Below, in pieces: positions 6,914 to 34,400 of a stretch of 64,000 nucleotides of DNA. The notes below the pieces were generated by a model, which worked only from the letters and a program-made list of their open reading frames with translations, was not told the DNA's origin and did no database searches. Made by a program: the position numbers and the translations under genes. This DNA is from Nitrospirota bacterium. Its GTDB lineage: Bacteria > JACPQY01. The stretch spans positions 30,574 through 94,573 of the forward strand of contig JACPQY010000040.1 of the NCBI GenBank assembly GCA_016190245.1, in the 5' to 3' direction. Within the stretch, counting starts at the first letter, position 1. Every line of letters begins with the position of its first letter.

Positions 6914-8755
6914 GTGTTCCGCGTCTGGGCTATACCGCTGATCCCCCTCCTGGGGTTCGTCTACATCGGGCTGTTGAGCCGTCGCCTGAGCCGCCGGGCG
7001 GCGGCCATTGTGGGTTGCTCCACCGTCGCGCTCTCCTTCCTGGTTTCCCTCGAAGGCGCACTCCAACTCCTGAGGGGCGAGGAGGCTCTGACGGCGACTT
7101 TCTACACGTGGGCCTCGCTGGGGGACACGCTGGTTCGGCTGGACTACCGGCTGGACGCGCTTTCGGGCTCGATGGCGCTCATCGTGAGCGGTGTAGGGTT
7201 CCTCATCCATCTGTACTCCGTCGGCTACATGCATGGCGACCGCGGCTTCAACAGGTATTTCGCGTTCCTCAACCTTTTCATCTTCTTCATGCTCACGCTT
7301 GTCCTCTCGGACAATCTTCTGTTGACATTCGTCGGGTGGGAGGGCGTGGGGCTGTGCTCGTACCTCCTCATCGGCTTCTGGTACGAGAAGTCGGATCCTC
7401 CACCGGCAGCGGTCAAGGCGTTCGTGGTGAACCGCATTGGCGATTTCGGGTTCCTCACGGCGATGGTGCTTCTCTTGGCGCAAGTGGGGACGCTCTCAAT
7501 CTCGGAACTCCTTCAGTCCGCCCCCGGCGCTTTCGAAGCCTGGCCGGTGGGTGCCCTTGCCGTGGGTCTCCTTCTTTTCCTGGCGGCCACGGGCAAGTCG
7601 GCCCAGGTGCCGCTCTACGTGTGGCTGCCGGACGCGATGGCCGGCCCGACGCCCGTGAGCGCGCTTATCCATGCGGCCACCATGGTGACGGCCGGGGTGT
7701 ACCTCATGGCCCGGTTCCGTCCGATCCTGGAACTTCAGCCGCAGGTGCTCGAAGTGATCTGCGCCGTGGGCGCGGTCACGGCGCTCCTCGCCGCTTTGAT
7801 CGCGCTCGCTCAGCGCGACATCAAGCGCGTGCTGGCCTACTCGACGGTGAGCCAGCTCGGCTACATGTTCATGGGCGTCGCCGCCGGGGGGGGGGTGGCC
7901 GGGATGTTCCACCTCACCACCCATGCTTTCTTCAAGGCGTTGCTCTTCCTCGGGGCAGGCTCCGTCATCCACGCGATGGGCGGCGAGCAGGACATCACGA
8001 AGATGGGGGGGCTGCGGTCGAAGACGCCGATCACGTTCTGGACCTGTCTCGTGGGGGCGCTCGCCTTGGCCGGGCTGTTTCCCACCGCCGGTTTCTATAG
8101 CAAGGACTTGATCCTGGCCGACGTGCTGCATTTTGGCGAGTGGGGCCGGATTCTCTTTGCCATGGGCGTCCTCACGGCGGGACTTACGGCGTTCTACACC
8201 GCTCGATGGCTCATGCTGATCTTTTTCGGCGAGTACCGCAGCCCGCACCACCACCCGCACGAGAGCCCGGCGGTGATGACCGTGCCGCTGGTCCTACTGG
8301 CCATCTTCAGCTTCGGCGCGGGATGGGGGGAACACGCGTACGCGCACTTCGTGGGGCGGGTCTTGGAGCCGCCGGAAGGTCACGTGCCCGGTCAGGTGAT
8401 CGCCTGGGCGTCGGGTGCAGGCATCGTGGGCTTGTTGGCGGGCTTCCTGCGCTACCGGAGTCTCGTGCCGGGCCCGGGCCCGGCGAAGGGATTGGCGCGC
8501 GTGTCCGAGCGGAAATTCTGGGTGGATGAGATCTATGACGCTCTCATCGTCCGGCCGTATCAGTTCCTCTCTAAGGTGATAGCCTCCTGGGTGGATGGCG
8601 GGCTGATTGACACGGCTCTCGTCAACGGCTCGGGCGCGTTGGTGCGCGCCGCCGGTCGGATTGTCCGGCCGCTCCAGAACGGCCAGATTCAGGTGTACAC
8701 CTTGGCCATGATGGTCGGCCTTGTCGCCGCGCTCGGATGGATGCTGTGGTCCTGA
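6914..8755 (+). CDS. nuoL: NADH-quinone oxidoreductase subunit L
   Basis: 613-residue antiporter-like proton-pumping subunit of complex I at the distal end of the membrane arm. It has a GTG start. Visible marks are FVGWEGVGLCSYLLIGFW (conserved Glu of helix 5), AATGKSAQVPLYVWLPDAMAGPTP (conserved Lys of helix 7), SALIHAATMVTAGVYLMAR, and RDIKRVLAYSTVSQLGYM with a further channel Lys. The C-terminal region has the long amphipathic helix expected of NuoL. Length matches the family (about 610). Its last 19 nt overlap nuoM. Confidence 0.97.
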   Translation: MFRVWAIPLIPLLGFVYIGLLSRRLSRRAAAIVGCSTVALSFLVSLEGALQLLRGEEALTATFYTWASLGDTLVRLDYRLDALSGSMALIVSGVGFLIHLYSVGYMHGDRGFNRYFAFLNLFIFFMLTLVLSDNLLLTFVGWEGVGLCSYLLIGFWYEKSDPPPAAVKAFVVNRIGDFGFLTAMVLLLAQVGTLSISELLQSAPGAFEAWPVGALAVGLLLFLAATGKSAQVPLYVWLPDAMAGPTPVSALIHAATMVTAGVYLMARFRPILELQPQVLEVICAVGAVTALLAALIALAQRDIKRVLAYSTVSQLGYMFMGVAAGGGVAGMFHLTTHAFFKALLFLGAGSVIHAMGGEQDITKMGGLRSKTPITFWTCLVGALALAGLFPTAGFYSKDLILADVLHFGEWGRILFAMGVLTAGLTAFYTARWLMLIFFGEYRSPHHHPHESPAVMTVPLVLLAIFSFGAGWGEHAYAHFVGRVLEPPEGHVPGQVIAWASGAGIVGLLAGFLRYRSLVPGPGPAKGLARVSERKFWVDEIYDALIVRPYQFLSKVIASWVDGGLIDTALVNGSGALVRAAGRIVRPLQNGQIQVYTLAMMVGLVAALGWMLWS

Positions 8756-10233
8756 CCGGCGGGCGGCTCCTGACGCTGCTCGTGTTCATGCCCAGCGTGG
8801 CGGGCGCCTTGTGCGCTCTCTCCCGGTCCTCGCGCGCGGCTGCGGTGTGGGCGTTGCTGGGGTCGGGCGTTCCCCTCATCCTCGGTGCTGCGGCGGTGTG
8901 CGGGTTTGACGCCTCGGCGGCCGGTTTCCAATGGGTGGAGCGCGTGGATTGGATCCCCTCGCTTGGAATCTCCTACCACATGGGCGTGGACGGCGTGAGC
9001 TGGCCGCTCGTGCTCCTCACGCTTCTCCTTACGTTCCTCTCGCTCGTCTACTCCATCGGTCGGATTCAGAACGCGACGCGGCTCTACTACGCCTCGTTCC
9101 TCTGGCTCGAGACCGGGCTGATGGGCGTCTTCTGCGCGCTCGACATGATTCTCTTCTTCGTCTTCTGGGAGTGGGTCCTGATCCCGATGTATTTCATCAT
9201 CGGCTACTGGGGCGGCGCGCGGCGGATCTACGCGGCGCTCAAGTTCTTCCTCTACACGATGCTCGGGAGCGCGTTCATGTTGGTGGCTCTCCTCGTGACG
9301 GCCCACCTTTACCACCAGGCGACGGGCGCGTGGAGTTTCGACTGGGCGGATTGGGTGGCGATCCGCGACACGATCGATCCGAACCTCCAGCTCTGGCTGT
9401 TCTCGGCGTTTGCGTTCTCGTTCGCGATCAAGGTGCCGGCTTGGCCCTTCCACACCTGGCTGCCCGACGCGCACACGGAGGCCCCCACGGCGGGGAGCGT
9501 GATTCTGGCGGGTGTTCTCCTCAAGATGGGTGCGTACGGCTTCCTGCGATTCGGTCTCCCGCTCTTCCCCGAGGGCGCGGTGCAGGCGGCTCCCGTCATG
9601 GTGGGCCTTGGCTTGGCAGGCATCCTGCTGGGAGCGGCCGCCTCGTACGTGCAAACCGATCTCAAGAAGCTTGTGGCGTACTCGAGCGTCAGCCACATGG
9701 GGTTCGTCGTCCTCGGGATCTTCTCCTTCACCCTGGAGGGGGCCGCCGGCGCGACGATCCAGATGGTGAACCACGGGCTCTCGACGGGTGCGCTCTTCCT
9801 CATGGTCGGGATCATCTACGAGCGGACGCACAAGCGGGGAGTGACCGATTTCGGCGGGCTCGCCAAGACGATGCCTCTCTATGCGACCGTCAGCGTGATC
9901 CTTGTGCTCTCGTCCGTCGGTCTTCCCGGCCTGAACGGATTTGTGGGAGAGTTTCTCGTGATCGCGGGCGCGATGAAGGCGCGGCCCCTGTACGCGTTCG
10001 TGAGCGCCCTTGGAGTGATCCTCGCGGCGGTGTATCTGCTCAGCATGGTTCGCAAGGTCTTCTGGGGCGAGGCGAACGCGAACCTCCACGGGCTGTCCGA
10101 CCTGACTTGGCGGGAGACCGCGGTGTTCTTGCCGTTGCTCTTGTTCATTGTGGTGATTGGGGTGTATCCGGCGCCGTTCCTCGAGGTCTCGGAGGGTGCG
10201 CTGAAAGCGATTCTAGAAGGAGTGGCCCCGTGA
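8737..10233 (+). CDS. nuoM: NADH-quinone oxidoreductase subunit M
   Basis: 498-residue antiporter-like subunit of complex I. Shown by FVFWEWVLIPMYFIIGYWGG (conserved Glu), AIKVPAWPFHTWLPDAHTEAPTAGSV (conserved Lys and the canonical quinol-oxidoreductase signature), and DLKKLVAYSSVSHMGFVVLG. The ATG at 8737 overlaps the 3' end of nuoL by 19 nt; a GTG at 8746 is a possible alternative. It is followed by a 136 nt spacer before nuoN that carries a GC-rich palindromic repeat. Confidence 0.96.
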   Translation: MDAVVLTGGRLLTLLVFMPSVAGALCALSRSSRAAAVWALLGSGVPLILGAAAVCGFDASAAGFQWVERVDWIPSLGISYHMGVDGVSWPLVLLTLLLTFLSLVYSIGRIQNATRLYYASFLWLETGLMGVFCALDMILFFVFWEWVLIPMYFIIGYWGGARRIYAALKFFLYTMLGSAFMLVALLVTAHLYHQATGAWSFDWADWVAIRDTIDPNLQLWLFSAFAFSFAIKVPAWPFHTWLPDAHTEAPTAGSVILAGVLLKMGAYGFLRFGLPLFPEGAVQAAPVMVGLGLAGILLGAAASYVQTDLKKLVAYSSVSHMGFVVLGIFSFTLEGAAGATIQMVNHGLSTGALFLMVGIIYERTHKRGVTDFGGLAKTMPLYATVSVILVLSSVGLPGLNGFVGEFLVIAGAMKARPLYAFVSALGVILAAVYLLSMVRKVFWGEANANLHGLSDLTWRETAVFLPLLLFIVVIGVYPAPFLEVSEGALKAILEGVAP

Positions 10234-12376: not shown

Positions 12377-12448
12377 GCCGGGGTAGCTCAATGGTAGAGC
12401 AGTCGATTCGTAATCGACAGGTTGTGGGTTCAAGCCCCGTCCCCGGCT
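12377..12448 (+). tRNA. tRNA-Thr (anticodon CGT)
   Basis: 72 nt cloverleaf. The 7-bp acceptor GCCGGGG pairs with CCCCGGC, with discriminator T. The D arm is GCTC-AATGGTA-GAGC. The anticodon stem GTCGA/TCGAC encloses loop TTCGTAA (anticodon CGT). The T arm has loop TTCAAGC and two wobble pairs at the outer end of its stem. The 3' CCA is not encoded. The anticodon reads ACG threonine codons. Confidence 0.95.
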
Positions 12449-12456
12449 GACCGACC

Positions 12457-14229
12457 GTGGTGAAACCCCTTCTCGACACATCGGATGGCGCGGTAGCCCG
12501 GGAATCGCCGCTGTGGTTCACCCGTCTGCGATGGGGCGCGGTCGGGGGCCTTGTACTCATGCTGTCGGTGGGGGGACATGTCTTGGGCATCCTCGATGCC
12601 GCAGCGCTTCCATACCTGTGGATGCTCGTAGCGGGCCTCGCGGCAGGCAATGTCGTCTTCCGCGCCCGAGCCGGCCGCGTGGAACGACCCGGACGCGAGG
12701 TGCTGATTCAAGTTCTATTCGACTTGGTCGTGCTCACAGGCCTTCTGGCACTGTCCGGCGGCTCCCTCAATCCCTTCGCGTTCGTCTACGCGTTCCACGT
12801 CGTCATGGCCGGGATCCTGCTCCCGGGCGGGTGGGCCTACCGCATCGCCGGGCTCTCGTCCGTCCTGTTCGTGGGGCTCGGGGCGGTGGGAGTGGCCGGA
12901 TGGCTCCCCCAGTTTGCCTTGAGATTCGGCGGGCCGGACTCGATCCCGCTCGCCGAGGAGATCTCGCGACTTCAGTCGGCCCTCGGCGGCAGTCTCCACT
13001 ACCAGTTGAGCACCGCTGCGGCGTTCATCACCTCGATGTTCGTGCTCGCCTTCTTCACGACCACCCTGGCAGGCCGGCTGAGGGAACACCGGCGGAAGGC
13101 CGAGGTGCTGGCCGCCACGCTCAGCAGCAAAGCCGACGAACTGGGACTCGCAGAGGCACAGGTGCGCGAGGAGAAGGCGAAGCTCCTGGCCACCTACCAG
13201 TCCATGAGCGACGGAGTCATCCTGCTCGATCGCGAGAATCGAATCGTGTTCTCGAATGCGGCGGCAGAGGCCTTTCGGCGGCCGGGACGACACGTGGGCC
13301 GACCGGTCCTCGCGTGTCACCCGGAGATGGCGCATGGCCGGGTGCAGGCCGAGCTGGAGTCACTGCGGAAGGGGCGCCGGACTTCCTTTCACCGGTTGGT
13401 GAGCGCGGGCGACCGTACCTTCGAGGCCACGTACACATCGGTGCGCGACGCGGCCGACCAGCATCTCGGCATCGTGATCGTTTCGCGCGATATCACGGAC
13501 CGGCTGGAAATGGAAAAGCGGATGGCCCATCAGGAGAGACTCTCGTCTCTGGCACGGGTGGCGGCAGGACTGGCGCACGAGGTTGGCAATCCCCTCTCCT
13601 CGCTTATGGCGCGCCTTCGCCTGCTGGAAGAAGAGAAGGACGATCCTGCGACCGTGGAGGAGAGCCTCGTCGTTTTGAAAAGGGAGCTCATGCGAATCTC
13701 GCGCATCGTGCGTGACATGTCCGACTTCTCCCGCCCCGCACAGGGTGAGCCGGGCTCGTGTCTCGTGGGCACTGTCGTTCGCGATGTCCTGCGCCTCGTG
13801 GAACCGGATGCCCGCGAACGTGGCGTGCACTTGGAATGCGATCTCGATGGGGAGCTCCCGGCCGTGCCCGCCCATCCCGATCACCTCCGCCAGATCTTTC
13901 TAAATCTCCTCATCAATGCGCTGGACGCCACGCCGGCCGGCGGACGGATCGATGTGGCGGGAGGGCGGCGAGATTCGAAGGTCTGGGTCGCATTCCGGGA
14001 CACGGGGCACGGCGTCCCCAGCGAACTCCTGCCGAGAATCTTCGAGCCGTTCTTCACCACGAAGACGGAGCGGAAGGGGACGGGGCTCGGCCTCTGGGTC
14101 AGTTACTCCCTCGCCCGGGCCCAGGGCGGCACCATCGAGATTTCGAGCGAGCCGGGAGCGGGTTCGACTTTCACGGTCCTCCTCGCGTTGCAGCCCCCTC
14201 TGTCTGAACCGGCGCAGGTGGAGCCTTGA
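12457..14229 (+). CDS. Membrane sensor histidine kinase with RegB-type quinone motif and PAS domain
   Basis: 590-residue sensor kinase. About six hydrophobic segments occupy residues 25-205. Between the third and fourth is SGGSLNPFAF (GG at 101-102, NPF at 105-107), matching the GGxxNPF heptad that binds ubiquinone in RegB/PrrB; the RLRWGAVGG entry to the first helix is also RegB-like. A coiled linker and PAS domain follow (about 240-350), then an H-box LAHEVGNPLSS with the phospho-acceptor His near residue 374, and an ATPase domain with NLLINALDA, GHGVP and GTGLGLWVSYS. The redox-active Cys of classical RegB is not evident. The GTG start is 8 nt after tRNA-Thr. Its TGA overlaps the TTG start of the response regulator, so the two are a cognate pair, probably controlling the molybdoenzyme operon downstream. 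Confidence 0.9.
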   Translation: MVKPLLDTSDGAVARESPLWFTRLRWGAVGGLVLMLSVGGHVLGILDAAALPYLWMLVAGLAAGNVVFRARAGRVERPGREVLIQVLFDLVVLTGLLALSGGSLNPFAFVYAFHVVMAGILLPGGWAYRIAGLSSVLFVGLGAVGVAGWLPQFALRFGGPDSIPLAEEISRLQSALGGSLHYQLSTAAAFITSMFVLAFFTTTLAGRLREHRRKAEVLAATLSSKADELGLAEAQVREEKAKLLATYQSMSDGVILLDRENRIVFSNAAAEAFRRPGRHVGRPVLACHPEMAHGRVQAELESLRKGRRTSFHRLVSAGDRTFEATYTSVRDAADQHLGIVIVSRDITDRLEMEKRMAHQERLSSLARVAAGLAHEVGNPLSSLMARLRLLEEEKDDPATVEESLVVLKRELMRISRIVRDMSDFSRPAQGEPGSCLVGTVVRDVLRLVEPDARERGVHLECDLDGELPAVPAHPDHLRQIFLNLLINALDATPAGGRIDVAGGRRDSKVWVAFRDTGHGVPSELLPRIFEPFFTTKTERKGTGLGLWVSYSLARAQGGTIEISSEPGAGSTFTVLLALQPPLSEPAQVEP

Positions 14230-15590
14230 ACGGTCACCTCCTCATCATCGACGACGAGGACTCCTACCGCGAGGACACGGCCCGCCTCGTGCGCAAGCGC
14301 GGACTCACCTGCACCACGGCGCCGGACGGGACAACCGGGCTCAGGCTGGCCGAGGAGCGCCGGCCGGATGTCATCCTGTGCGACCTCATGATGCCCGGGA
14401 TCAGTGGGATTGAGGTTCTCGATCGATTGGGCGGCGTCTGCCCGGAGGCCATCGTGTTCGTCGTAACCGCCCACGCCACGATCGAGACCGCCATCGAGGC
14501 CCTGAGGCGCGGCGCCCACGACTACCTGCTCAAGCCGGTCCTGTTCGAGGATCTTCTCGCGAAAATCTCCCGCGCCTTGGAGGTGCGCGATCTTCGAAGA
14601 GAGGTCCGCACTCTCCGCCGGGAGATCTCTCGTCCGGAGGAAACCTTCGGCATCGTCGGCCAGAACCCGAGAATCCGCGAGATTCTGGATCTCATCACAC
14701 GCCTGCCGCGGAACCGTCCGGCGGTGATCGTCCGGGGCGAGACCGGAACGGGGAAAGAACTGGTGGCGCGCGCGGTCCATCTCGTGGGTGACCCTCCCGG
14801 GAAAAGGTTTGTGGCGCTGAACTGCGCGGCCATTCCCGATCACCTGATCGAGAGCGAGCTGTTCGGCTACAGAAAAGGCGCCTTCACGGGTGCGATCGAG
14901 GACCGGGAAGGGCACTTCGAGCGGGCGCACGGGGGGACCTTGTTTCTCGACGAGGTGGCGGCGATGCCACTCTCCCTTCAGGCCAAGCTCCTGCGGGCCA
15001 TCGAGCAGAAGGAGATCATGCCGATCGGCGCGCGCGATCCCGTTCCGGCGGATGCCCGGATCGTGGCTTCAGCCCAGAGGGATTTGAGGGACCTCGTGAA
15101 AGAAGGCACGTTCCGCCAGGATCTTTTCTACCGCCTCCTCGTGGTCGAGATCGTCCTGCCTCCGCTTCGGGAGAGGCGGGACGACATTCCGCTCATCCTG
15201 GAGCACTACGTGCGGCGGCTGACCGCGGAGATGAAGGTGGGCTGCGAGGGCGTGGAGCCCGATGCCCTGAGGGCGCTGATGGCCTACTCCTGGCCGGGAA
15301 ACATCCGAGAGTTGCGCAACGCCGTCGAGAGGGCGTTGATCGTGCTCAAGGGCAAGGTTCTCCGCCGAGAGGATTTTCCTCGGGACATCGTCGCCGGTGC
15401 CGAAGAGGCCGTGGGGCACGACGAACTCCGTCTGGCCGTCCGCGCCTACGAGCGCGAGCACATCCGCCAAGTGCTGGCCGAGTGCGGGGGTCACCGCGAG
15501 CGCGCGGCGTCCCGTCTGGGCATTGACCGCGCCACGCTCTACCGCAAGATCAAGGACCTGGGGGTTCCGGGCCTGGACGCAGCAGAATAG
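14226..15590 (+). CDS. NtrC-family sigma-54 response regulator
   Basis: 454-residue activator with a receiver domain (phospho-Asp53 in VILCDLMMPG), an AAA+ domain with Walker A GETGTGKE near 171-178, an intact sigma-54 contact loop GAFTGA near 218-223 and Walker B LFLDEV, and a C-terminal Fis-type helix-turn-helix (RERAASRLGIDRATLYRKIKDL). The TTG start overlaps the kinase stop (TTGA). It should oligomerise when phosphorylated and remodel sigma-54 polymerase. The only strong -24/-12 element nearby is 138 nt after its stop, in front of the molybdoenzyme operon, with paired dyads just upstream that could be its binding sites. Confidence 0.95.
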   Translation: MNGHLLIIDDEDSYREDTARLVRKRGLTCTTAPDGTTGLRLAEERRPDVILCDLMMPGISGIEVLDRLGGVCPEAIVFVVTAHATIETAIEALRRGAHDYLLKPVLFEDLLAKISRALEVRDLRREVRTLRREISRPEETFGIVGQNPRIREILDLITRLPRNRPAVIVRGETGTGKELVARAVHLVGDPPGKRFVALNCAAIPDHLIESELFGYRKGAFTGAIEDREGHFERAHGGTLFLDEVAAMPLSLQAKLLRAIEQKEIMPIGARDPVPADARIVASAQRDLRDLVKEGTFRQDLFYRLLVVEIVLPPLRERRDDIPLILEHYVRRLTAEMKVGCEGVEPDALRALMAYSWPGNIRELRNAVERALIVLKGKVLRREDFPRDIVAGAEEAVGHDELRLAVRAYEREHIRQVLAECGGHRERAASRLGIDRATLYRKIKDLGVPGLDAAE

Positions 15591-15628
15591 CACCGTTGCG
15601 CTGCCGCGACGCCGTCCGCGCCCGGATC

Positions 15629-15660
15629 GTCGCAATCGCGCGACCCGCAGAGCATGCGGG
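15629..15660. promoter_or_regulatory. Two adjacent dyads, candidate activator binding sites
   Basis: GTCGC-N6-GCGAC (15629-15644) directly abuts CCCGCA-N5-TGCGGG (15644-15660). They lie 68-115 bp upstream of the -24 element, the usual place for enhancer sites of NtrC-type activators. The assignment to the adjacent regulator is inference. Confidence 0.4.
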
Positions 15661-15727
15661 CGCGGGAAGAATCAAGCGAGAACAATAGGGTGGTCGTCCC
15701 CCGCCGGAGAGACCCCGCCCGCGCTCG

Positions 15728-15743
15728 TGGCATGAGCATTGCA
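15728..15743 (+). promoter_or_regulatory. Sigma-54 promoter of the molybdoenzyme operon
   Basis: TGGCATG-N4-TTGCA, with GG at 15729-15730 and GC at 15741-15742 separated by exactly 10 bp. This is a near-perfect -24/-12 element. The predicted start is near 15754, about 13 nt before the GTG of the alpha subunit. Confidence 0.88.
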
Positions 15744-15766
15744 TAGGGACTGCAGACCGAGTCACC

Positions 15767-18700
15767 GTGGACCAAGGAGCGAAGACGAAGATAGACCCCG
15801 GGAATGTGGAGGAGCCCTCGGGCTCAACACAACAGGACACTAGGAAGTCGATCCTCTCCCGTCGCACCTTCGTCCAGTTGTTCGCCGCGGCCGGCGGCTC
15901 GCTCGCGTTCCTCGACAAGGAGGCCTGGGGAAGCGTGTTCACCTTCTTCGAGCCCTTCGACACGCCCAATCCACTTGCCCACTATCCGAACCGGAACTGG
16001 GAATCGGTCTACCGCGACCTCTTCCGCTACGACAGCGCCTTCACCTTCCTGTGCGCGCCCAACGACACCCACAACTGTCTGCTGCGCGCCTATGTGAAGA
16101 ACGGCGTCGTCACACGCCTCGGCCCCACCTATGGTTTCGGCGATGCCGTGGATCTCTACGGCAACCAGGCCTCGCACCGGTGGGAGCCACGCTGCTGCCA
16201 GAAGGGGTTGTCGCTCGTGCGCCGCTTCTACGGCGACCGGCGGTGCAAGTATCCCGTCGTGCGCGTCGGTTTCAAGAAGTGGATGGAAGCCGGCTTCCCG
16301 CGCGATCCGCAGACGGGCCGCGTCCCGCTCTCCTACATGAACCGTGGGAGGGACGGATGGCTCCGCCTTTCGTGGGAGGAGGCGTTCGACCTTTCCGCCC
16401 GCGCGCTCGCCAACATCGCCGAAACCTACTCGGGTGACGCCGGGGCGAAGCGGCTGAAGGCGCAGGGATACGACGAGGCGATGGTGGAGGCCGTCGGAGG
16501 CGCCGGCGTCCAGACGCTCAAGTTCCGCGGCGGGATGCCCGCGCTCGGGGCGACGCGTATCTTCGCGCAGTACCGCCTGGCCAACTGCATGGCGCTGCTC
16601 GACGCGAAAATCCGCGGCCTCGATGCCACGAAGGCCGTTGGCGCCCGCGGGTGGGACAATTACTCGTGGCACACGGACCTCCCTCCCGGTCATCCGATGG
16701 TCACCGGACAGCAGACGGTGGATTGGGATCTGGTGTGCGTGGAGAACGCAGGCCTCGCCGTTGTCTGGGGAATGAACTGGATTGCCACGAAAATGCCGGA
16801 CGCCCACTGGCTCACGGAGGCTCGTCTCAAGGGCACGAAGGTGGTCGTGATCGCCTGCGAATACAGTGCCACGTGCAACAAAGCCGATGCCGCCATTGTC
16901 GTCCGCCCCGGCACCACACCCGCCCTCGCGCTCGGACTCGCCGGCGTCATTCTCCGGGAAAAACTTCTCGACGAGGACTACGTACGGAGCACCACGGATC
17001 TGCCTTTTCTTGTGCGGATGGACACCATGAAGCTCCTACGCGCGCAGGACGTGTGGCCGGACCGCCCACCCGCCGCCATCCAGAACGCCGTTACCGTGGA
17101 GCCTCAGGGCGCGAAGCCCGTGCCGAACCATCTCCAGCCGAATGCCGTGGTCCCCGAAACCCTTCGCAAGGAGTGGGGCGACTTCGTCGTGTGGGATCAG
17201 ACCCAGGGCGGTCCGCGCGTGGTGACGCGGGACGAATTCGGCGCGAAATCTTTTTCCAAGCCCGCCTTGGAGGGCACGTACACGGTGAAGACCGCCGGCG
17301 GAGAAATCTCCGTTCGCACGGTCTTCGATCTCTTGAAGGAATACGTCCTCGCCAACTTTACCCTCGAACAGACGTCCGACATCACGTGGGCGCCGAAGGA
17401 AGCCATTGAATGGCTCGCTCGGGAGATCGCCAGGAACAAGGCTTCCACGCTCTTTGCCGTCGGCATGGGGCCGAACCAGTTCTTCAACAACGACCTCAAG
17501 GATCGCGCGATCTTCTTCCTGGCTGCGCTGACGAAAAACATCGGCCTCATTGGCGCCAACGTAGGGAGCTACGCCGGGAACTACAGAGCGGCCTACCTGA
17601 ACGGCCTGCCGCAATTCATCGCGGAGAATCCCTTCGATCTCGAATTGGACCCCTCCAAACCGGCGCGGCCGAAGATGTACTGGAAGGGCGAGTCGGTCCA
17701 CTATTTCAACGACAGCGAACACGTGCTGCGCGCAGGCAAGACGCTCATCACGGGAAAAGGCCACATCCCCACCCCCACGAAGGGCATCCTCGTTTCCAAC
17801 AGCAACTCGCTCATCGGCAATGCGAAAGGCCACTACGAAAGCGTCGTCAACGTGTTCCCCCGGGTGGAGTTCATCGGCGTCAACGAGTGGTGGTGGACGG
17901 CCTCGTGCGAGTACGCCGACATCGTCTTCCCCGTCGATTCCTGGGCCGAGTTCCGCTTCCCCGACCTCACGATCTCGGTGACCAACCCCTTCCTCTACAC
18001 CTACCCCCGCACACCACTACCCCGGATCTTCAACACGCGGGCCGATATCGAAGTGGCGGCGGGGATCGCCTCCAAGCTCGCGGACGTCACGGGCGATCAG
18101 CGGTTCCGGGAGGCATGGAAGTTCATCTATGAGGGTACGGCCGGGCCCTACCTCCAGCGGGTCCTCGACTTCAGCAGCATGACGCGAGGCTACAAGATGG
18201 CCGACCTCGAGAAGAAGGCACAAGAAGGCGTCCCGTCCATCCTCCTCAGCCGGACCTACCCGAAGGTCGTCGGTTGGGAACAAGGCAACGAGGATCGCCC
18301 TTGGTACACCAAGACGGGTCGGCTCGAGTTCTATCGGGAGGAGGCGGAATTCGCGGACGCCGGCGAGACGATTCCTGTCCACCGCGAGCCAATCGACTCC
18401 ACGTTCTACGAACCGAACGTCATCGTGGCGGAAAAGCACCCCGCCATCAGGCCAAAGACACCTGAGGACTACGGCGTGAAGCGCGAGGATCTCTCGGGAG
18501 ACAGGCGGCAGGCGCGCAACGTCGTGAAGACGTGGGCCGACCTCAAGGAGACGCAGCACCCGCTGATGAAGGAGGGCCATCGGTTCATTTACCACACGCC
18601 CAAGTATCGCCACGGCGCCCACACGACACCCGTGGACACGGACGTCGTCTGCGTGTGGTTCGGCCCGTTCGGTGATGTGTACCGTCATGACAAGCGCAAG

Positions 18701-19300
18701 CCGTTCATCTCGGAGGCGTTCGTGGACATCAACCCGCTGGATGCCAGAGAGCTGGGGATCGAAGACGGCGACTACGTCTGGATCGACGCCGACCCCGCCG
18801 ACCGCCCGTACCGCGGTTGGAAGAAAGGCACCGAGGAGTACAAGGTGGCGCGCCTGATGATCCGGGCCCGCTACTATCCCGGCACGCCGCGCGGCGTGGC
18901 CCGGACGTGGCACAACATGTTCGGCTCGACGTTCCAGAGCGTGAAGGGGCACGAAACCAACCCCACCGGCCTCGCGAAGGGTCCGGAGACCGGCTACCAG
19001 GCCATCTACCGATACGGCAGCCACCAGAGCTGCACGCGCGGCTGGCTCAAGCCGACGTGGATGACCGACTCCCTCGTCCGCAAGGATCTGCTGGGGCAGA
19101 GGATCGGCAAGGGTTTCATGCCGGACGTCCACTGTCCCACGGGGGCGCCACGGGAAAGTTTCGTCAAGATTACGAAGGCGGAAGACGGCGGCTACGGCGG
19201 CCAGAAGCTGTGGAAACCCGCGCGTGACGGTTACCGGCCCACCTATGAAAACGACGCCATGAAGCGGTTCATGCGTGGCGAGTTCGTCAAGGCCAAGTAG
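15767..19300 (+). CDS. nxrA: Periplasmic NXR/NarG-like molybdoenzyme, catalytic alpha subunit
   Basis: 1177-residue type II DMSO-reductase-family protein closest in feel to nitrite oxidoreductase NxrA of Nitrospira and anammox bacteria. A Tat motif SRRTFVQLF near residues 31-39 sends it to the periplasm already folded. The FS0 cluster ligands read C-x3-D-x3-C plus a later Cys in EPRCCQKG; E. coli NarG has H-x3-C-x3-C-Cys, so His is replaced by Cys and one Cys by Asp, the NXR-clade pattern. The Mo-ligand Asp is in [15 protein letters not shown]-like stretches include [32 protein letters not shown] and [16 protein letters not shown] start. It is first in an operon with beta, gamma, chaperone and porin. 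Direction (nitrite oxidation or nitrate reduction) and substrate cannot be fixed from the sequence; chlorate, selenate or other substrates remain possible. Confidence 0.88.
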
Positions 19301-19309
19301 GAGCACCCC

Positions 19310-20437
19310 ATGCCCAAGGTCCACAACTGGCAGATCAATCGAGAGATGGACTATCCCTACGAGGAATCCCGTCCGAAAAAACAGGTGGCGTACGTCTTCG
19401 ACACCAACAAGTGTATCGAGTGTCAGACCTGCTCGATCGCCTGCAAAACGACGTGGACATCCGGCAAAGGCCAGGAGTACATGTTCTGGAACAACGTGGA
19501 GACGAAGCCGTACGGCTTCTATCCGTTGGGGTGGGATGTGAAGATTCTGGAAAAGCTTGGCGCACAGGAGTGGGCCGGCGGCACCTATGCGGGCAAGACG
19601 GTGTTCGAGTCGGCGGCGCCCGGCGAGCGCGTGCTGGGCTACCAGCCGGGAGAGGAGGACTACGCCTCCCCGAACGTAGGCGAGGACGATGTCTCGGAGG
19701 TCGTCCAGAAGGGTGCCTTCTTCCAAGGGATACACAAGACATGGATGTTTTACCTCGCGCGCATCTGCAACCACTGTACCTACCCTGCATGCCTGGCTTC
19801 CTGTCCGCGAAAAGCCATCTATAAGCGGGAGGAAGACGGCGTGGTGCTCATCGATCAGACCCGCTGCCGCGGCTACCGCGAGTGCGTGAAGGCCTGCCCG
19901 TACAAGAAGGTGTTCTTCAACCTGATGACGCGCGTCTCGGAGAAGTGCATCGCCTGCTACCCGCTCCTCGAACGGGGCAAGCAGCCGCGTTGCGTCGAGA
20001 CCTGTATCGGGAGGATTCGACTCCAAGGTTGGCTCAGCCGGGCGGGTGAGGAGAAGAGGGACAACCCCATCGACTACCTTGTGCGCATCCGCAAAGTGGC
20101 CATCCCGCTCTATCCCCAGTACGGCCTCGAGCCGAATGTGTACTACGTCCCGCCGATCCACGTGCCGCGCGAGTTCCTGCTCCAGATGTTCGGCCCGGCG
20201 GTGGACGCGGCGGTGGACACCTATCGAAAGGCGAAAGACGACAAGGAACTCCTGGCGGCCCTGCTCCTGTTCGGGAGCTCGGATCAAACGATGACCTCCT
20301 TCAAGCGGGATGGCGACGCCGTCCTCGGCTACAACGCGAAGGGCGAACAGGTCGTGCGCGTCCCCTTCAAGGAACCGGTCTACATCCGGCCTTACTTTGA
20401 TGAGAAGAACAATGTCTACCGACACAACATCACGTAG
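19310..20437 (+). CDS. nxrB: NXR/NarH-like iron-sulphur beta subunit
   Basis: 375-residue electron-transfer subunit with four cluster motifs: [38 protein letters not shown] and [20 protein letters not shown]. In the third, an aromatic residue (Tyr) replaces one Cys as in NarH, predicting three [4Fe-4S] and one [3Fe-4S] clusters. The family signature [12 protein letters not shown] follows the first motif. No signal peptide is present, so it should be co-exported with the Tat-targeted alpha subunit. Starts 9 nt after alpha. It would pass electrons between alpha and the haem-b gamma subunit. Confidence 0.94.
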
Positions 20438-20498
20438 AGCACCTAACACGGTGAACTTCTCGACAAAGGGCATCATGTTTGAGGTTCAAAGGCGAGCC

Positions 20499-21401
20499 AT
20501 GAGGAACGTCACAGCCGTGGCGCGCGTGGGTCTCGTGGTCTTGGCTGCTCTCGCGTGGAGTCCGGCCGCACCGGCGTCCGATTTCGAAATCGTCGCCAAG
20601 CACATCGGCAGCGGCCCGCTCCCCACGCTGAATCCGAACGACCCGAAGTGGAAGAGCGCTGCCGAGGCGGAGCTTTGGCTCCTTCCGCAGAACATGATCG
20701 CGCCGTCGCTTATCCAGCTCACGATCCCGTGGCTGAAAGTGCGGGCCCTCTGCAACGATACCGACATCGCGTTCCGTCTGGAGTGGCCGGACCCGACGCA
20801 GGACTACGTCCTGGACATCGGTGGTTTCTCGGACGGCGTCGCGATCGAATTCCCAATAGGACCCGCGGATCCGTCGCCCTTCATGGGTCACCCCTCCCAG
20901 GACGGCCAGCCGGCCGGACGTGTGCACATCGTCCACTGGAAAGCGACGTGGCAGGTGGACATGGACAAGGGTTTTCAGGGTGTCGATCAGATCTACCCGA
21001 ACGCATGGTGGGACATCTACCCGTTCCTCAACGGAGCCTTCCCCTTCCTTACCGAGCAGAGTCTGACCGCCCGCGAGACGCTGAACTACTCGCCGGGCGC
21101 CTATGTCGGCAATCCGGTCTCGCTGACGAAGCGGAAAACGCCCGTGGAGGAGTTGATCGCCGAAGGTTTCGGAACTCTCACCACGCAACCCCGTCAGGAC
21201 GCCTGGGGCGTGGGCCTGTGGCGCGCGGGCAAGTGGACCGTAATTCTCGCGCGCCCGAAGGTTTCGAAGGACGCCATGGACAGCGTGCTCCCCATGCAAG
21301 GCGAATCCAAGAGGGCCTTCGCCGTGTGGAACGGATCGGACCAGGACCGCGGCGCCCGCAAGCACTACTTCCCATGGACCTCGCTCAAGATCGGGCCCTA
21401 A
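20499..21401 (+). CDS. nxrC: Haem-b gamma subunit of the NXR-like enzyme (ethylbenzene dehydrogenase gamma family)
   Basis: About 300 residues with a Sec signal peptide (RNVTAVARVGLVVLAALAWS, cleavage near APAS-DFE). The mature part is the beta-sandwich that binds one haem b in the gamma subunits of ethylbenzene dehydrogenase, selenate/chlorate reductases and NXR. MGHPSQ and VHIVHWKATWQ are the regions expected to hold the Met and Lys axial ligands (Met in MGHP, Lys in HWKA); this assignment is by analogy. The start at 20499 gives the cleanest signal peptide; 20475 is an alternative. It follows beta by 61 nt. It would hand electrons to a periplasmic cytochrome or membrane partner not encoded here. 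Confidence 0.86.
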   Translation: MRNVTAVARVGLVVLAALAWSPAAPASDFEIVAKHIGSGPLPTLNPNDPKWKSAAEAELWLLPQNMIAPSLIQLTIPWLKVRALCNDTDIAFRLEWPDPTQDYVLDIGGFSDGVAIEFPIGPADPSPFMGHPSQDGQPAGRVHIVHWKATWQVDMDKGFQGVDQIYPNAWWDIYPFLNGAFPFLTEQSLTARETLNYSPGAYVGNPVSLTKRKTPVEELIAEGFGTLTTQPRQDAWGVGLWRAGKWTVILARPKVSKDAMDSVLPMQGESKRAFAVWNGSDQDRGARKHYFPWTSLKIGP

Positions 21402-21439
21402 CGCAGGGCATTCCGGCAGGTCGCCGCAACCGCGATGCG

Positions 21440-22126
21440 ATGCGGTGGCTGGCCCGGGCGGATATGTTCCGCTTCCTCGGCAGGTGTTTCGACTACCCGA
21501 CCGAAGGAGACCTGGATGACCTGACGCACGTCGGTCGGTCCCTCGCTGCAGGCCCGCACCTGCACGAGCGGATTCGATCGCTGGTGGTGAATGTGTGCGA
21601 GGAGGCAAGCACCCGCGATCTCCAGACGGAGCAATGCGAATACGAACGGATCTTCGACGTCGCGCCTGTCTGTCCCCCCTATGAATCGGCCTTCTGCCCG
21701 GCCCTGAAGGAGCGGGTTCTGTGTGACATCGCCGGCTTCTACACGGCGTTCGGACTGACACCGAGCGCCCGGCGCGCCGAGAGGCCGGATCACATCTGCG
21801 CCGAACTGGAGTTCCTATCCGTTGTCTCGGTCAAACTTGCGCTCGCCACGAGCGAAGGCCGCTTGGAGGCGCGCGAAGTGTGCGAACACGCCTATCGATC
21901 GTTTCTGGGAGATCACCTCGGACGTTGGGCCCAGCCGTTTTGCGAAGAGGTTGCCGCCGCCTCGAATTCCCGCCTCGTGGGGTCATCCACCTCCCTGCTC
22001 GCCCACTGGACCGCGCACGAGTTGAGAGTGCATCGGGTCCGGACGGATCCGTACACCGCCCCGGGCGTCTTGCCCCCGGAGGCGGAGATCTCGTGCGGGA
22101 TGTCAGCCCAACCGCCGCAGGGGTAG
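21440..22126 (+). CDS. TorD/DmsD-like molybdoenzyme maturation chaperone
   Basis: 228-residue all-helical protein of the TorD/NarJ chaperone superfamily, which holds the Tat-exported molybdoenzyme until its cofactor is inserted. Family marks are RADMFRFLGRCFDYP near the start, CPPYESAFC in the middle, and the signature ERPDHICAELEFLS. The position right after the gamma gene fits a dedicated chaperone for the alpha subunit. The start is uncertain: ATG 21440 gives a usual TorD length, while ATG 21374 would overlap gamma by 28 nt and add 22 residues. No clear Shine-Dalgarno sequence is seen for either. Confidence 0.87.
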   Translation: MRWLARADMFRFLGRCFDYPTEGDLDDLTHVGRSLAAGPHLHERIRSLVVNVCEEASTRDLQTEQCEYERIFDVAPVCPPYESAFCPALKERVLCDIAGFYTAFGLTPSARRAERPDHICAELEFLSVVSVKLALATSEGRLEAREVCEHAYRSFLGDHLGRWAQPFCEEVAAASNSRLVGSSTSLLAHWTAHELRVHRVRTDPYTAPGVLPPEAEISCGMSAQPPQG

Positions 22127-22159
22127 TCGCCACACCCACGCGGATGTAGAGTCCATCGT

Positions 22160-23464
22160 GTGAAAGGGAGAAACATGGAAATGCCTTTCTCATTCCGGGC
22201 TCTTCGAAGAGGGATGCTGGCCGCCGCGTGTTGCTCGCTGCTTGCCGGTTGGTCCGTGCCGCCGAGCGAGGCCCTCGCGGACGCGCAGGTCAACTTCCAG
22301 TACCGCCCGCGAGCCGAGATGAAAGGCGCCGGCTACAAGAATCCCAACACGGAGGCCACCCACGCCTACTTCGAAGCCTCGCACCGCGCCCGTCTGGGCG
22401 CCAAGTTCACGCACGCCTCTGCGCCAGGCGCCGCCGCCCTTGTCGAGATCCAGGATGTCCGTTTCTTCGGCGAGGAGTTCGATACGCTGAACGATTTCGT
22501 GGCCGATGGATTCGACCTACATCAGGGACTCGTTGACCTCTACGATGGGGAAAGCAGGTTGGGTGTTCGGGTCGGCCGGCAGGAGCTCACTTATGAGGAG
22601 CATCGCCTTTTCGGCAACGTGGACTGGACCCAGCAAGGCCGCTCCCACGATGCGGTCGTCTTTCGGTGGGACCCCAAGCCCTACGAGATGCATCTCGGCC
22701 TGGCGAAGAACCTTGGGCGGTCACGGCTCACGGGGACGTACAACAAAGCGTACAAGGACTACAGCACCTATCGCGAACTCTCCTTTCTGTGGGTCAAGAG
22801 ATCCTTCGATCAGGCCGCCGCGAGCGTCTACGCGGTGTATGACACTCCGAAGGACGTTTCCACGCGATGGACGGTTGGACCTCGGGTCGAGTCCAAACAC
22901 TTCGGCCTCCAGAGCCGGGCAGAAGCCTACTACCAGCAGACCAAGAAGCCCGACAAGGATGCCGTGAAAGGGTACTTTCTGGGCCTCACGACGGGGAAGA
23001 CGGTTCCCATCGGCGGGCTCAACGCCACGGTTGCAGGCTGGTACGATCTCAGTTCGCCTGATTTCTACAGTCTGTACCCGACGGCCCACAAGTTCTTCGG
23101 GTACATGGATCTCTTCCTTGCGTTTCCGGCCGACACGAAGTTCCCGGGCGACAATGGGACCAAAGGCCTGCACGATCCTGCCCTCCGGCTGACGGTGGCC
23201 GCCGGAAAGTGGAAAGTTCTACTGGACGCTCACTATTTCCTGCTCACCAAGGACGCCGACGGTGAAAAGGCCATCGGGCCGGAGGTGGATCTCACGATTC
23301 CCGTCGCGGTCCATGATGCCGTGACGCTCACGTGCGGCGCCAGCGCGCTCGTCCCTGGGAAGGCGATGGAGAATCTCAAGGGCAAGGGCGAGGGGGCAGC
23401 CTTTGCGCCTGCCGATCTTCAGACCGGCATCTGGTCGTATGTGATGCTGGACGCCAAGTTCTGA
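22160..23464 (+). CDS. Alginate-export-family outer-membrane beta-barrel porin
   Basis: 434-residue exported protein with a signal peptide (hydrophobic core MLAAACCSLLAGW, cleavage after SEALA). The body has alternating-residue beta strands, ends in the outer-membrane-type aromatic C-terminus MLDAKF, and contains the family motif RVGRQELTYEEHRLFGNVDW. AAAGGGAG-like purines (AAGGGAG) precede the first ATG at 22160; an ATG at 22175 is also possible. It is the last gene of the sigma-54-driven operon, so a role as an entry or exit channel for the molybdoenzyme substrate or product is a reasonable inference. Family members also carry polysaccharides or small organics. Confidence 0.85.
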   Translation: MKGRNMEMPFSFRALRRGMLAAACCSLLAGWSVPPSEALADAQVNFQYRPRAEMKGAGYKNPNTEATHAYFEASHRARLGAKFTHASAPGAAALVEIQDVRFFGEEFDTLNDFVADGFDLHQGLVDLYDGESRLGVRVGRQELTYEEHRLFGNVDWTQQGRSHDAVVFRWDPKPYEMHLGLAKNLGRSRLTGTYNKAYKDYSTYRELSFLWVKRSFDQAAASVYAVYDTPKDVSTRWTVGPRVESKHFGLQSRAEAYYQQTKKPDKDAVKGYFLGLTTGKTVPIGGLNATVAGWYDLSSPDFYSLYPTAHKFFGYMDLFLAFPADTKFPGDNGTKGLHDPALRLTVAAGKWKVLLDAHYFLLTKDADGEKAIGPEVDLTIPVAVHDAVTLTCGASALVPGKAMENLKGKGEGAAFAPADLQTGIWSYVMLDAKF

Positions 23465-27111: not shown

Positions 27112-28506
27112 ATGCGTCTCCTGATTGTGGATGATGAGGACGAGTCACGGCGCCTGATCCGCAGCGCCATCGAGGGCATCCCCGTCGATCCCCGGGAAAT
27201 CGAGGAAGCCGCCAGCGGCGAGGAAGCCGCCGCGCGACTCGCCCAAGCGCCGTTCGACATCGTCCTCACGGACATGGTGATGGACCGCATGGATGGTCTC
27301 AAGGTGCTCAAGGCCGCCAAGGACGCCCGGACCGAGACCGAGGTCATTCTGGTGACGGCGTACGCCACGATCGAGTCGGCGGTGAAGGCGATCAAGGCGG
27401 GCGCTTTCGACTACATCTCCAAGCCCGTCCACGCTGAAGAGGTGCAACAGGTGGTGCTGCGAATCCTGGAGCGGCAGAACCTGCTCCGGGAGTTGGAACG
27501 GTTCAGGGATGAGGTGGAGAGCCGAAGCACGATCGATCGCATCATCGGCGATTCCACGCCGATCCGCCAACTGAAGAAAATGATTCAGAGCGTGGCCGAG
27601 GCCGACGCGCATATCCTGATCACCGGCGAGACCGGGACAGGCAAGGAGCTTGTCGCGCGCGCCTTGCATTCGCTCTCCAAGAGGAAGGCGCGCCCGATTG
27701 TGGCGGTCAACTGCGCGGCTTTGCCGGAGAACCTGCTCGAGAGCGAGCTGTTCGGCTACCGCCGCGGCGCGTTCACGGGGGCCGGCGCCGACAAGCGGGG
27801 GCTGATCGAGGAGGCCCACGGCTCGACACTTTTCCTTGACGAGATCGGCGAGATGCCGCTGACGCTTCAGGCCAAGTTGCTCAGAGCGTTGGATACGGGC
27901 GAGTACCGCCGGCTGGGCGACGTGAAGGCGCACCACGTGGACGTCCGTGTGGTCGCTGCCACAAATATCCACGTGGAGCGGGCCATCCGGGAAGGGAAGT
28001 TCCGGGAGGATCTCTTCTATCGCCTGTCCGTCTTTCATGTGGTCCTCCCACCGCTAAGGGAGCGGGTGGAGGACATTCCCCTCCTGGTTCAGCACTATGT
28101 CCGGGAGTTCGCGGAGAAGTTCGGCAAGCGCACCGAAGGTGTGAAACCGGACGGCCTGCGGTACCTCTCGCGGCTGAGATGGGACGGCAACGTGCGCGAG
28201 CTCTCGCACGTGATCGAGAGGGCGGTGGTGCTGTCGCAGGGGACGATGATTCCCATCGAAGATCTCTCTCAGATCGTCGGGGATCGGGCCGAGGCGGCGG
28301 AGCCGATCCTTCCGCTCCATCAGGTGGAGAAGAATTGCATCCTCGAGGCGCTCCAGCGTTGCGGGGGGCAGAAGGAGAAGACCGCGCAGGTGCTGGGGAT
28401 CTCCACTGCCACGTTGTGGCGCAAGCTCAAGGAGTACGGGATCTCGGCTCAGGCGGCGGGGCGAGCCGCGCGCGCCGCGAATGAACGAGACGGGAGCTCG
28501 GAGTAG
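27112..28506 (+). CDS. Orphan NtrC-family sigma-54 response regulator
   Basis: 464-residue regulator: receiver domain with phospho-Asp54 (VLTDMVMDRMDG), AAA+ domain with Walker A GETGTGKE, intact GAFTGA loop near 220-225, Walker B LFLDEIGEM, R-finger region FREDLFYRLSVF, and a C-terminal Fis helix-turn-helix (KEKTAQVLGISTATLWRKLKEYG). No histidine kinase is adjacent; it lies 35 nt after tolB and converges with the lipocalin-like gene 9 nt away. It may act on the candidate sigma-54 promoter at 31417 or elsewhere; the target cannot be told. Confidence 0.95.
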   Translation: MRLLIVDDEDESRRLIRSAIEGIPVDPREIEEAASGEEAAARLAQAPFDIVLTDMVMDRMDGLKVLKAAKDARTETEVILVTAYATIESAVKAIKAGAFDYISKPVHAEEVQQVVLRILERQNLLRELERFRDEVESRSTIDRIIGDSTPIRQLKKMIQSVAEADAHILITGETGTGKELVARALHSLSKRKARPIVAVNCAALPENLLESELFGYRRGAFTGAGADKRGLIEEAHGSTLFLDEIGEMPLTLQAKLLRALDTGEYRRLGDVKAHHVDVRVVAATNIHVERAIREGKFREDLFYRLSVFHVVLPPLRERVEDIPLLVQHYVREFAEKFGKRTEGVKPDGLRYLSRLRWDGNVRELSHVIERAVVLSQGTMIPIEDLSQIVGDRAEAAEPILPLHQVEKNCILEALQRCGGQKEKTAQVLGISTATLWRKLKEYGISAQAAGRAARAANERDGSSE

Positions 28507-31416: not shown

Positions 31417-31432
31417 TGGAATGGTTGTTGCT
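31417..31432 (+). promoter_or_regulatory. Candidate sigma-54 promoter of the giant lipoprotein gene
   Basis: TGGAATG-N4-TTGCT, GG and GC separated by exactly 10 bp. The expected start near 31443 leaves an 18 nt leader containing AAGGTGGG 7 nt before the ATG at 31461, so the geometry is coherent. The C of the -24 box is replaced by A. Confidence 0.5.
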
Positions 31433-31460
31433 AGTTGAACCTATAAGGTGGGAATTGTCC

Positions 31461-34400
31461 ATGATGGTGCAAACTGGGTGGAATTTGCGGGCGTGGGTTC
31501 TGGTAACGGCCACAGCTCTCGGGTTTGGTGCATGCCAGGGTGGAACAGGTTCCCCAAAGGAGCCTCCGGTCGGCGGCCAACCGACCGCATTCGCTGATTC
31601 TTCGGACTTTCCTGGGAGCGAGGCCGTTGGCGACGGGGCTGGAGGTCTGCGAGTTCGCAAGGCGCCCCCCGCCGGCGTTCTCACCGCGTGTACGAACGCC
31701 ACCTATCCGATGCCACACAGTTTCGAGACCGGCTGGGACGGCTGGACGGTTGAAACGGGCACTCAGTGGGCCCAGGGGGCCCCCAGTGCGGCAGGTGCCG
31801 GCAGCGGCGGCGCCGGCTGCGGGTACAACTCGAACGCCGATCCGGCGGCCGGCGACCCCGGCTCCAACGTGTTGGGAACGCGACTGGGAACGACCACCAA
31901 CGCATCCCGCTACCAAAACAATCAGACCGCCAGAGTCGTCTCGCCCGTGGTCGATTGCTCCAAGCTCCAGAACGTGCGCCTTGCCTACAACCGCTGGCTC
32001 AACGCCGAATTGGCTCAATTCGACGACGCCTCGATCGAGCTCAGCACTGATGGCGGCACGAATTGGACTCTCATTTGGAACAACAATAACTTCACGCCCA
32101 TCCTCGATTCGGCCTGGACCGCCAAGGAGATCACGCTCCCCTTCAACCTCGCGGACAAGAAAGCCTCGGTCCGGCTTCGGTATGCCCTGGTGACGGACGC
32201 CACCTGCAACGCCACGGGATGGAACATGGACCGTGTCCGTCTCGTCGGCAACGATGTCCCGCCGGGCGCGCCCACGAACCTTTGGGCTCAGGACACGGCC
32301 GGCGACACCGGTGGGAGCCTCACGGTCAATTGGACGAAATCCACGGACGACGGCGCCGGCTTCAACGATGTGAACGGGTACGAAGTGTGGCGACGGACCG
32401 CAGCCGGAAACTTCGCCTCCTGCACCGCGCTCGTGACGGACGGGGACAATTGCGGCTGCGTCAAGGGCGCGACGGCGAACTGCCAAGCCGCCGGGCTTCT
32501 CGGGGCCGGTACGCAAACCTATGCCGATACGTTCTCGATCGCGAACAATACGAACTACTACTACTTGGTGAAGGTGTCGGACGTGGGAGGCAACATCATC
32601 GAATCCGCAGAGGCCGGTCCCGTCCAGGCGCTCGACAACACCGCCGCCCCCTCCGCGCCGACGCTCGTCTCGCCCGCCGACGGCAGCGCCTCCGCCGTGA
32701 AGGCCCCCACGCTCACGTGGAACGTCCCGACGGATCCCAACAACAACCTGCTCCACTTCAAGGTCGAAATCAGCCCCAACCCGGGATTCGGCTCCACCGT
32801 GTTCACCGAGGAGTTCGGCACCGCCACGTATTACGATTCCGTCGCCTCGTCCAACGTCAGTTGGAGCACAACCGACGGGGTCGCGACCGTCCTGGCGGGC
32901 CAGGGCGTGGCGGATCAGGTGTCGAACCCCGCCGGCGCGAGCCTCTACCGCCTCGACTTCGACGGGAACAACTCCCAATCGTTCACGCCGTCGGGGGCGA
33001 TGGACCTGTACAGCATAGACGTCAAGCTCGGAAACGAGAGCGGCACGATCTACACGTACATCATTGATCTGTTCGGCGATGCCGGCGGCGGCTTGCCGGA
33101 TACGGCCAACCTGGTCGCGACCGTGACGGCCAACCATGACCCCTCGGGCGGCGCCGCGTTCTTCAATTTCCCCTTCGCGAAACCTCTCCCCGCCCTGACC
33201 GGTGGGACGTCCTACGTCTTCGTGATCCGCGCCTTGACCACCCAGGTAACCGGAACGAACGTGAAGTTCGGCGATTCCGGCTACGCCGGTGTCTGCAACC
33301 GGACGGACAATGGAGGGGCGAGTTGGGCGGCCTGCGCGAACGGGTGGGACCTGGCCTTCCGGACCTACCCTTCCTCCTATCCCGCGTCGGGAACGGTGCA
33401 GTCGAAGGTGATCGCGTCGTCCGCCGCGGACATCACGCGCGCCACCCTCACCGCAGACCATCGGCTCAAGGGCGGAACCATTGCCTACCAACTGAGCGCC
33501 AACGACGGTGTGAACTGGGAGAATGCGACGCCCGGCACGCCGCTGGATTTCGCCAACCCCGGCAAGAGCCTGAAGTGGCGGGCGACGGTCACCACGCCCG
33601 GCGCCAATGTGAGCCCCGTGATCGATCGAGTTACGGTGGAATACACCTCCCTGTTTGTGCGCGAATCCCTCTACGGCACGACAGGATTCTCCCCGATGCC
33701 CCCGGTGGCCTCGGGATCCGGAACGACGGACTACGAGGTCCAGCCGAGCGAGGCTCTCTCCGACGGTGTCTACTACTGGCGGGTATCCGCTTACAACGGG
33801 TTTCTGTACGGACCGACGTCGGCCGTGCGTTCCTTCACCGTGGATACGACGCCGCCCTCGTGGGCTGCCAATCCGATCGGCCTGGGTGTGGCGGATGCTC
33901 AGACCGGCGGCAAACTGAACGTCTCCTGGACGCAGAGCGCCACCGACACGCTCAGTGCCGTCAGCTACCGAATCCACTGCGGATCGCTCGGGTTCATACC
34001 CTCGGGCGCCAACCTCGTCACGACGGTGACGGCCAAGTCCTATGCCGACAGCGGACTGCTGTCCGGCACGCAATACTGTTATCGGATCGTACCGGCCGAC
34101 GCGATCGGGAACGCGGGCGCCCAGAGCGAAGAGGTCTGCGCCACGCCGACCGCCACGTTCGCGTACTGCACCGCTGCCACGGCCCAGCCACATGACTTCG
34201 AAACAACGGATGGCGGCTGGATCTCCGGCGGAACCAACAACAACTGGCAGTGGGGGAACGCGAGCCCCGGCGGCACGGGAAACCCAGACCCCAACGCCGC
34301 GTTCAGGGGGAGCAAGATTTGGGGGACCAACCTGGGGGGGAACTACCTCAACAACTCGAATTCCTGGGTCCGCTCTCCGGCTCTGAACTGCGCCAATATC

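Follow-up and report, generated by a model that had tools for sequence, protein, structure and literature searches.

A kinase–regulator pair encoded directly ahead of an operon for a periplasmic molybdoenzyme would, in the reading that we favor with fair but not full confidence, switch on that operon through a sigma-54 promoter according to redox state, with the enzyme working mainly as a nitrate reductase. The enzyme itself is probably a redox-controlled periplasmic nitrate reductase from a clade that is sister to the NXR enzymes.

Organization of the locus and its predicted promoter

The window, by which we mean the whole 64-kb stretch of DNA that was analysed, carries seven genes in a row on its + strand. 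The list of open reading frames and domain searches bear out the calls made in a preliminary description of this DNA (kinase, regulator and a five-gene operon on one strand). The row begins with a membrane histidine kinase (12457–14229) with PAS, HisKA and HATPase domains, whose reading frame overlaps by 4 bases that of the regulator (14226–15590). The latter combines a receiver, a sigma-54 AAA+ domain with the GAFTGA motif and a Fis-type HTH, and is accordingly an NtrC-type response regulator. The operon comprises the molybdoenzyme alpha subunit (15767–19300), with a Tat signal and the FS0 ligand pattern C-x3-D-x3-C followed by a later Cys; an iron-sulfur beta subunit of the type II DMSO reductase family (19310–20437); a haem-b gamma subunit (EB_dh, PF09459; 20499–21401, with 20499 as the likely start), which has a Sec-type leader and no membrane helix besides it; a TorD/NarJ-type maturation chaperone (PF02613; 21440–22126); and an outer-membrane porin of the alginate-export type (PF13372; 22160–23464). 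Related porins lie close to the alpha gene in three other loci (L009, L015 and L075). A tRNA-Thr (cgt) gene at 12377–12448, 8 bases ahead of the kinase start, is a candidate site at which the entire unit may have inserted.

The 176-bp gap between the regulator and alpha genes holds a predicted sigma-54 −24/−12 promoter, TGGCATGAGCATTGCA (15728–15743, + strand), with GG-N10-GC in a TGGCA/TTGCA context. It is the top-scoring sigma-54-type site of the window on both strands, its score was matched by none of 5000 shuffles of the gap, and it ranks first among 111 upstream regions of related enzymes, in keeping with its earlier description as near-perfect. The genome from which the window comes (G000) has one match to rpoN. 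Further upstream, at 15595–15644 on the same strand, are two candidate tandem dyads of the form GTYGC-N6-GCGAC, 34 bases apart (at 15595 and 15629). This pair is unique in the genome; an equally good pair arises in 21% of the shuffles, and we therefore rejected the dyads as a proven activator site. No regulator-binding site upstream of the promoter could thus be established in the gap.

The alpha subunit belongs to the sister clade of NXR

Among solved structures, the alpha subunit scores highest against Kuenenia NxrA (932 bits), followed by PcrA (170), EbdA (141) and NarG (about 129–134). It resembles the Kuenenia stuttgartiensis NXR (PDB 7b04) in overall length, Tat signal (SRRTFV), FS0 ligands (CAPNDTHNC, with the later Cys in PRCCQKG) and the position of the Mo-Asp loop, but the two are 39% identical, lie in separate clades and differ at all 29 discriminating residues (see below). 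The locus likewise does not encode a cytoplasmic-facing NarGHI, as it lacks the His-x3-Cys-x3-Cys FS0 and the NarI quinol anchor and has a gamma subunit of the EB_dh type.

Among type II enzymes, the window's protein is a member of the NXR/NarG group, which agrees with the preliminary description at this level. In a tree of 91 alpha proteins, it and its 82% identical relative belong to a 79-row clade with proteins from Methanoperedens, Halobiforma and Magnetococcales. The sister group of this clade contains Kuenenia NxrA, an NC10 enzyme, a second enzyme of the relative's genome (G001) and three others. The branches dividing the two have SH-aLRT values of 99–100; the finer branching is less sure because the tree was built by a quick method. 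At 29 positions that discriminate the clades, derived from 87 sister-clade and 33 NXR-clade sequences, the window alpha has the sister-clade residue at every one and the NXR-type residue at none. The residue after the Mo-ligand Asp is Leu in the window alpha and in NarG, and Gln in NXR; the W-x2-D-L-P-P Mo-Asp loop common to NarG is retained.

The preliminary description had assigned the enzyme to the periplasmic NXR clade from its FS0 ligands and Tat signal. Both features are present, and the ligands are of the periplasmic NXR type rather than the NarG type; however, they are found across the sister clade as well and hence do not place the enzyme in NXR. The FS0 pattern by itself is no guide to whether an enzyme is an NXR or belongs to the nitrate-reductase-like sister clade, and the assignment has to be replaced by a grouping with the NarG of Ca. 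Methanoperedens (58% identity) and its halophilic and magnetococcal relatives. Unlike the window, two loci of this grouping (L051 and L055) yielded no kinase–regulator pair. In earlier work, the branch nearest to periplasmic NXR consisted of nitrate reductases of bacteria and archaea (PMC3578206), and the same mixed group was recovered in a study which found reaction direction not assignable from sequence for this broad group (PMC10732223).

A RegB-like motif in a kinase paired with an NtrC-type regulator

In the window kinase, the motif GGSLNPF lies between the third and fourth of six hydrophobic stretches. RegB has GGxxNPF as its quinone motif (PMC8191878), from which we infer that the kinase senses redox state. 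The number of membrane stretches and the position of the motif are shared with RegB/PrrB. The kinase differs from that family in carrying a PAS domain, in having an NtrC-type partner instead of RegA, in lacking a redox-box Cys near the H-box (its only Cys residues are at 287, 435 and 461) and in scoring 104 bits against the RegB/PrrB family model, for which the cut-off is 350. The missing Cys, the different partner and the low score together indicate that it is not a RegB.

Kinases encoded at two Planctomycetota loci (L074 and L076) align to it over about 590 residues with 31–32% identity and carry GGAENPF. Those of a Sandaracinaceae locus (L024) and of Nitrospirota loci align in the kinase core only and lack GGxxNPF, and the Nitrospira kinases were therefore rejected as relatives of the window kinase. 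Moreover, GGxxNPF kinases with NtrC-type partners are also found away from NXR-type genes (L161 and L162), so that such a pair is not specific to them. The regulator tree splits the regulators of different phyla, with long branches, and we rejected the notion that they constitute one inherited module; since the regulators of different groups are not one clade, recruitment looks repeated. A bolder proposal, about which we are doubtful, is that a quinone-sensing GGxxNPF kinase with an NtrC-type regulator may be a control unit of its own kind that recurs at NXR-type enzymes, was recruited both in the window's phylum and in Planctomycetota, and adjusts production of the enzyme to quinone-pool redox state. 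Another NtrC-type sigma-54 response regulator is encoded at 27112–28506, 3.6 kb past the operon, and is not near the first in the regulator tree.

Phyletic distribution of the arrangement

The window's phylum is represented in our collection by two genomes, G000 and G001. The nearest relative, in G001 (L112), has an alpha subunit of 82% identity and carries the alpha-beta-gamma-chaperone order; it lacks an upstream kinase–regulator pair, a comparable promoter and a porin. G001 does have a kinase of the same type (GGIENPF) with a regulator, on another contig than this operon. The proposal that kinase, regulator and enzyme form one module is not supported by this relative, and the preliminary description had itself named related genomes bearing the operon without the pair and promoter as evidence against it. 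Nor is it supported by the sister clade at large, where such a pair occurs in only one (L024) of the 55 loci with at least 3.2 kb of upstream sequence.

Of the 80 loci examined in named genomes, three have a clear kinase–regulator pair upstream, namely L024 and the Planctomycetota loci L074 and L076. In L024, the regulator is followed by TGGCCATCGTCTTGCT (3 of 500 shuffles were as good); a small Tat-type protein, by eye like a high-potential iron protein, is encoded between this site and the alpha gene (~9450–9760). In the two Planctomycetota, NXR-type operons are preceded by a GGxxNPF kinase (full-length, about 32%), an NtrC regulator and a common site, TGGTATGC[AT]AATTGCT, with shuffles as good in 19/500 (L074) and 6/500 (L076) cases. 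Dyads of the GTACAC/GTGTAC type some 200 bases before this site (L076, ~3260–3290; L074, ~7650–7675) are possible regulator sites.

We further searched 198 Nitrospirota genomes, 56 of which gave a strong NxrA-type match. The 32 NXR loci extracted from them (L163–L194, after four sister-clade loci were left out of a scripted 36) are taken to be Nitrospira-type on the basis of their 55–58% to Kuenenia over the query. In 12 of the 32, a sigma-54 activator is encoded in the same orientation no more than 1.5 kb upstream, six times with a receiver, and two (L186 and L189) have the full kinase-regulator-promoter-nxrA order, with TGGCAATCTC[TC]TTGCT ahead of nxrA. None of the eight sister-clade loci from this search (L195–L202) has such an activator upstream. 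A passage of PMC7522533, which refers to Lucker 2010 and Koch 2015, states that sigma-54 regulators stand in front of the NXR operons in most Nitrospira, and several sigma-54 regulators were discussed in N. moscoviensis (Mundinger 2019, PMC6606698). These Nitrospira nxrAB resemble the window in having a sigma-54 activator adjoining an NXR-type operon with −24/−12-like sites upstream and, in L186 and L189, a kinase that precedes an activator with a receiver; they differ in that the enzyme is a true NXR, the sensor parts of the kinases are unrelated and the regulators lie in another clade.

Thus, the arrangement is known in kind, and its earlier portrayal as undescribed cannot be upheld. The gene order sought there recurs in L024, L074, L076, L186 and L189, though not in G001. 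What remains is a variant of it, in which a six-TM kinase with a RegB-like GGxxNPF quinone motif is predicted to drive a sigma-54 promoter ahead of an enzyme that is probably a periplasmic nitrate reductase. Periplasmic nitrate/nitrite enzymes have been placed under sigma-54 control again and again, with sensors that are unrelated, in Nitrospirota, Planctomycetota, Myxococcota and the poorly sampled phylum of the window.

Proposed mechanism and alternative explanations

In the proposed mechanism, the kinase would sense how oxidised or reduced the membrane quinones are through the membrane domain that carries GGSLNPF, and PAS would provide another input. From what is known of these families, it would phosphorylate the regulator, which would then bind upstream and remodel sigma-54 RNA polymerase. 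Transcription of the operon would begin just past 15728–15743, for which the sequence support is strong. The chaperone is expected to load the Mo cofactor and Tat to export alpha-beta, while gamma would be a soluble haem-b subunit in the periplasm and the porin would pass nitrate/nitrite across the outer membrane. Control by the pair is favored by adjacency, the common strand, the window's best sigma-54 site and the single rpoN match, as well as by the related kinase, NtrC regulator and common site ahead of the two Planctomycetota operons; against it, G001 keeps the operon core without the pair, and the dyads are not above chance. The quinone input is suggested by the RegB motif, whereas the absence of the redox-box Cys speaks against it; if true, it would tie nitrate/nitrite turnover to respiratory redox state in a testable way.

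It is improbable that the pair adjoins the operon by accident and controls other genes, leaving the sigma-54 site to another activator such as the 27112–28506 regulator. The absence of the pair at the G001 operon would fit this, as would the fact that NXR-type operons in different phyla have regulators that are not one clade, but the window's best promoter sits exactly between regulator and operon, and the same order appears again in L024, L074, L076 and two Nitrospirota loci. A substrate other than nitrate/nitrite, be it chlorate, selenate or an organic compound, is very improbable: the gamma and beta subunits do show similarity to type II enzymes more widely, ethylbenzene dehydrogenase among them, but the match of alpha to NxrA far outscores those to ClrA, PcrA and EbdA, and alpha retains the NarG-like Mo-Asp loop.

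As for direction, the enzyme probably converts mainly nitrate to nitrite in this organism, the nitrite being usable by a copper nitrite reductase encoded elsewhere. Nitrate reduction by its clade mate Methanoperedens and the NarG-like Leu after the Mo-ligand Asp argue for this, as does the makeup of G000, where copper nitrite reductase (NirK) scores over its cut-off, NrfA was not found and the one haem-copper oxidase subunit is divergent and ccoN-like. An aa3-type oxidase subunit I was likewise not found; such absences are weak evidence because G000 is 84.8% complete. Against this, direction is unreadable from sequence, as reflected in PMC10732223. The same regulation could instead serve a nitrite oxidase or a freely bidirectional enzyme, the kinase reporting how reduced or oxidised the electron-transport chain is as a match to nitrite supply. 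We regard this as unlikely, even though the best solved relative is Kuenenia NxrA, the FS0 ligands are as in NXR, the soluble gamma comes without a NarI-type quinol anchor and the periplasmic NXR reaction is reversible (PMC3578206), because alpha lies outside the NXR clade without a single NXR-type residue at the 29 positions and G000 yielded no aa3 oxidase, whereas the second, NXR-type enzyme of G001 adjoins one. That true NXR-clade enzyme (L113) is about 1.2 kb from an oxidase subunit I (L203) on the same contig (C24), which aa3-type models fit best. Their proximity suggests a division of labour, and G001 is a candidate nitrite oxidiser.

Several other features of these genomes were observed. 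The copper nitrite reductase of G000 (L206, contig C25) has a C-terminal cytochrome c domain. Another G000 locus (L114, C47:8000–27999) contains, in a row, three alpha genes for type II molybdoenzymes that resemble ethylbenzene dehydrogenase, together with beta, gamma and chaperone matches, and a similar set is present in G001. In the window, a secreted repeat protein of 2357 residues is encoded at 31425–38498, ahead of what by eye is a REP-type (Y1) transposase at 38793–39782.
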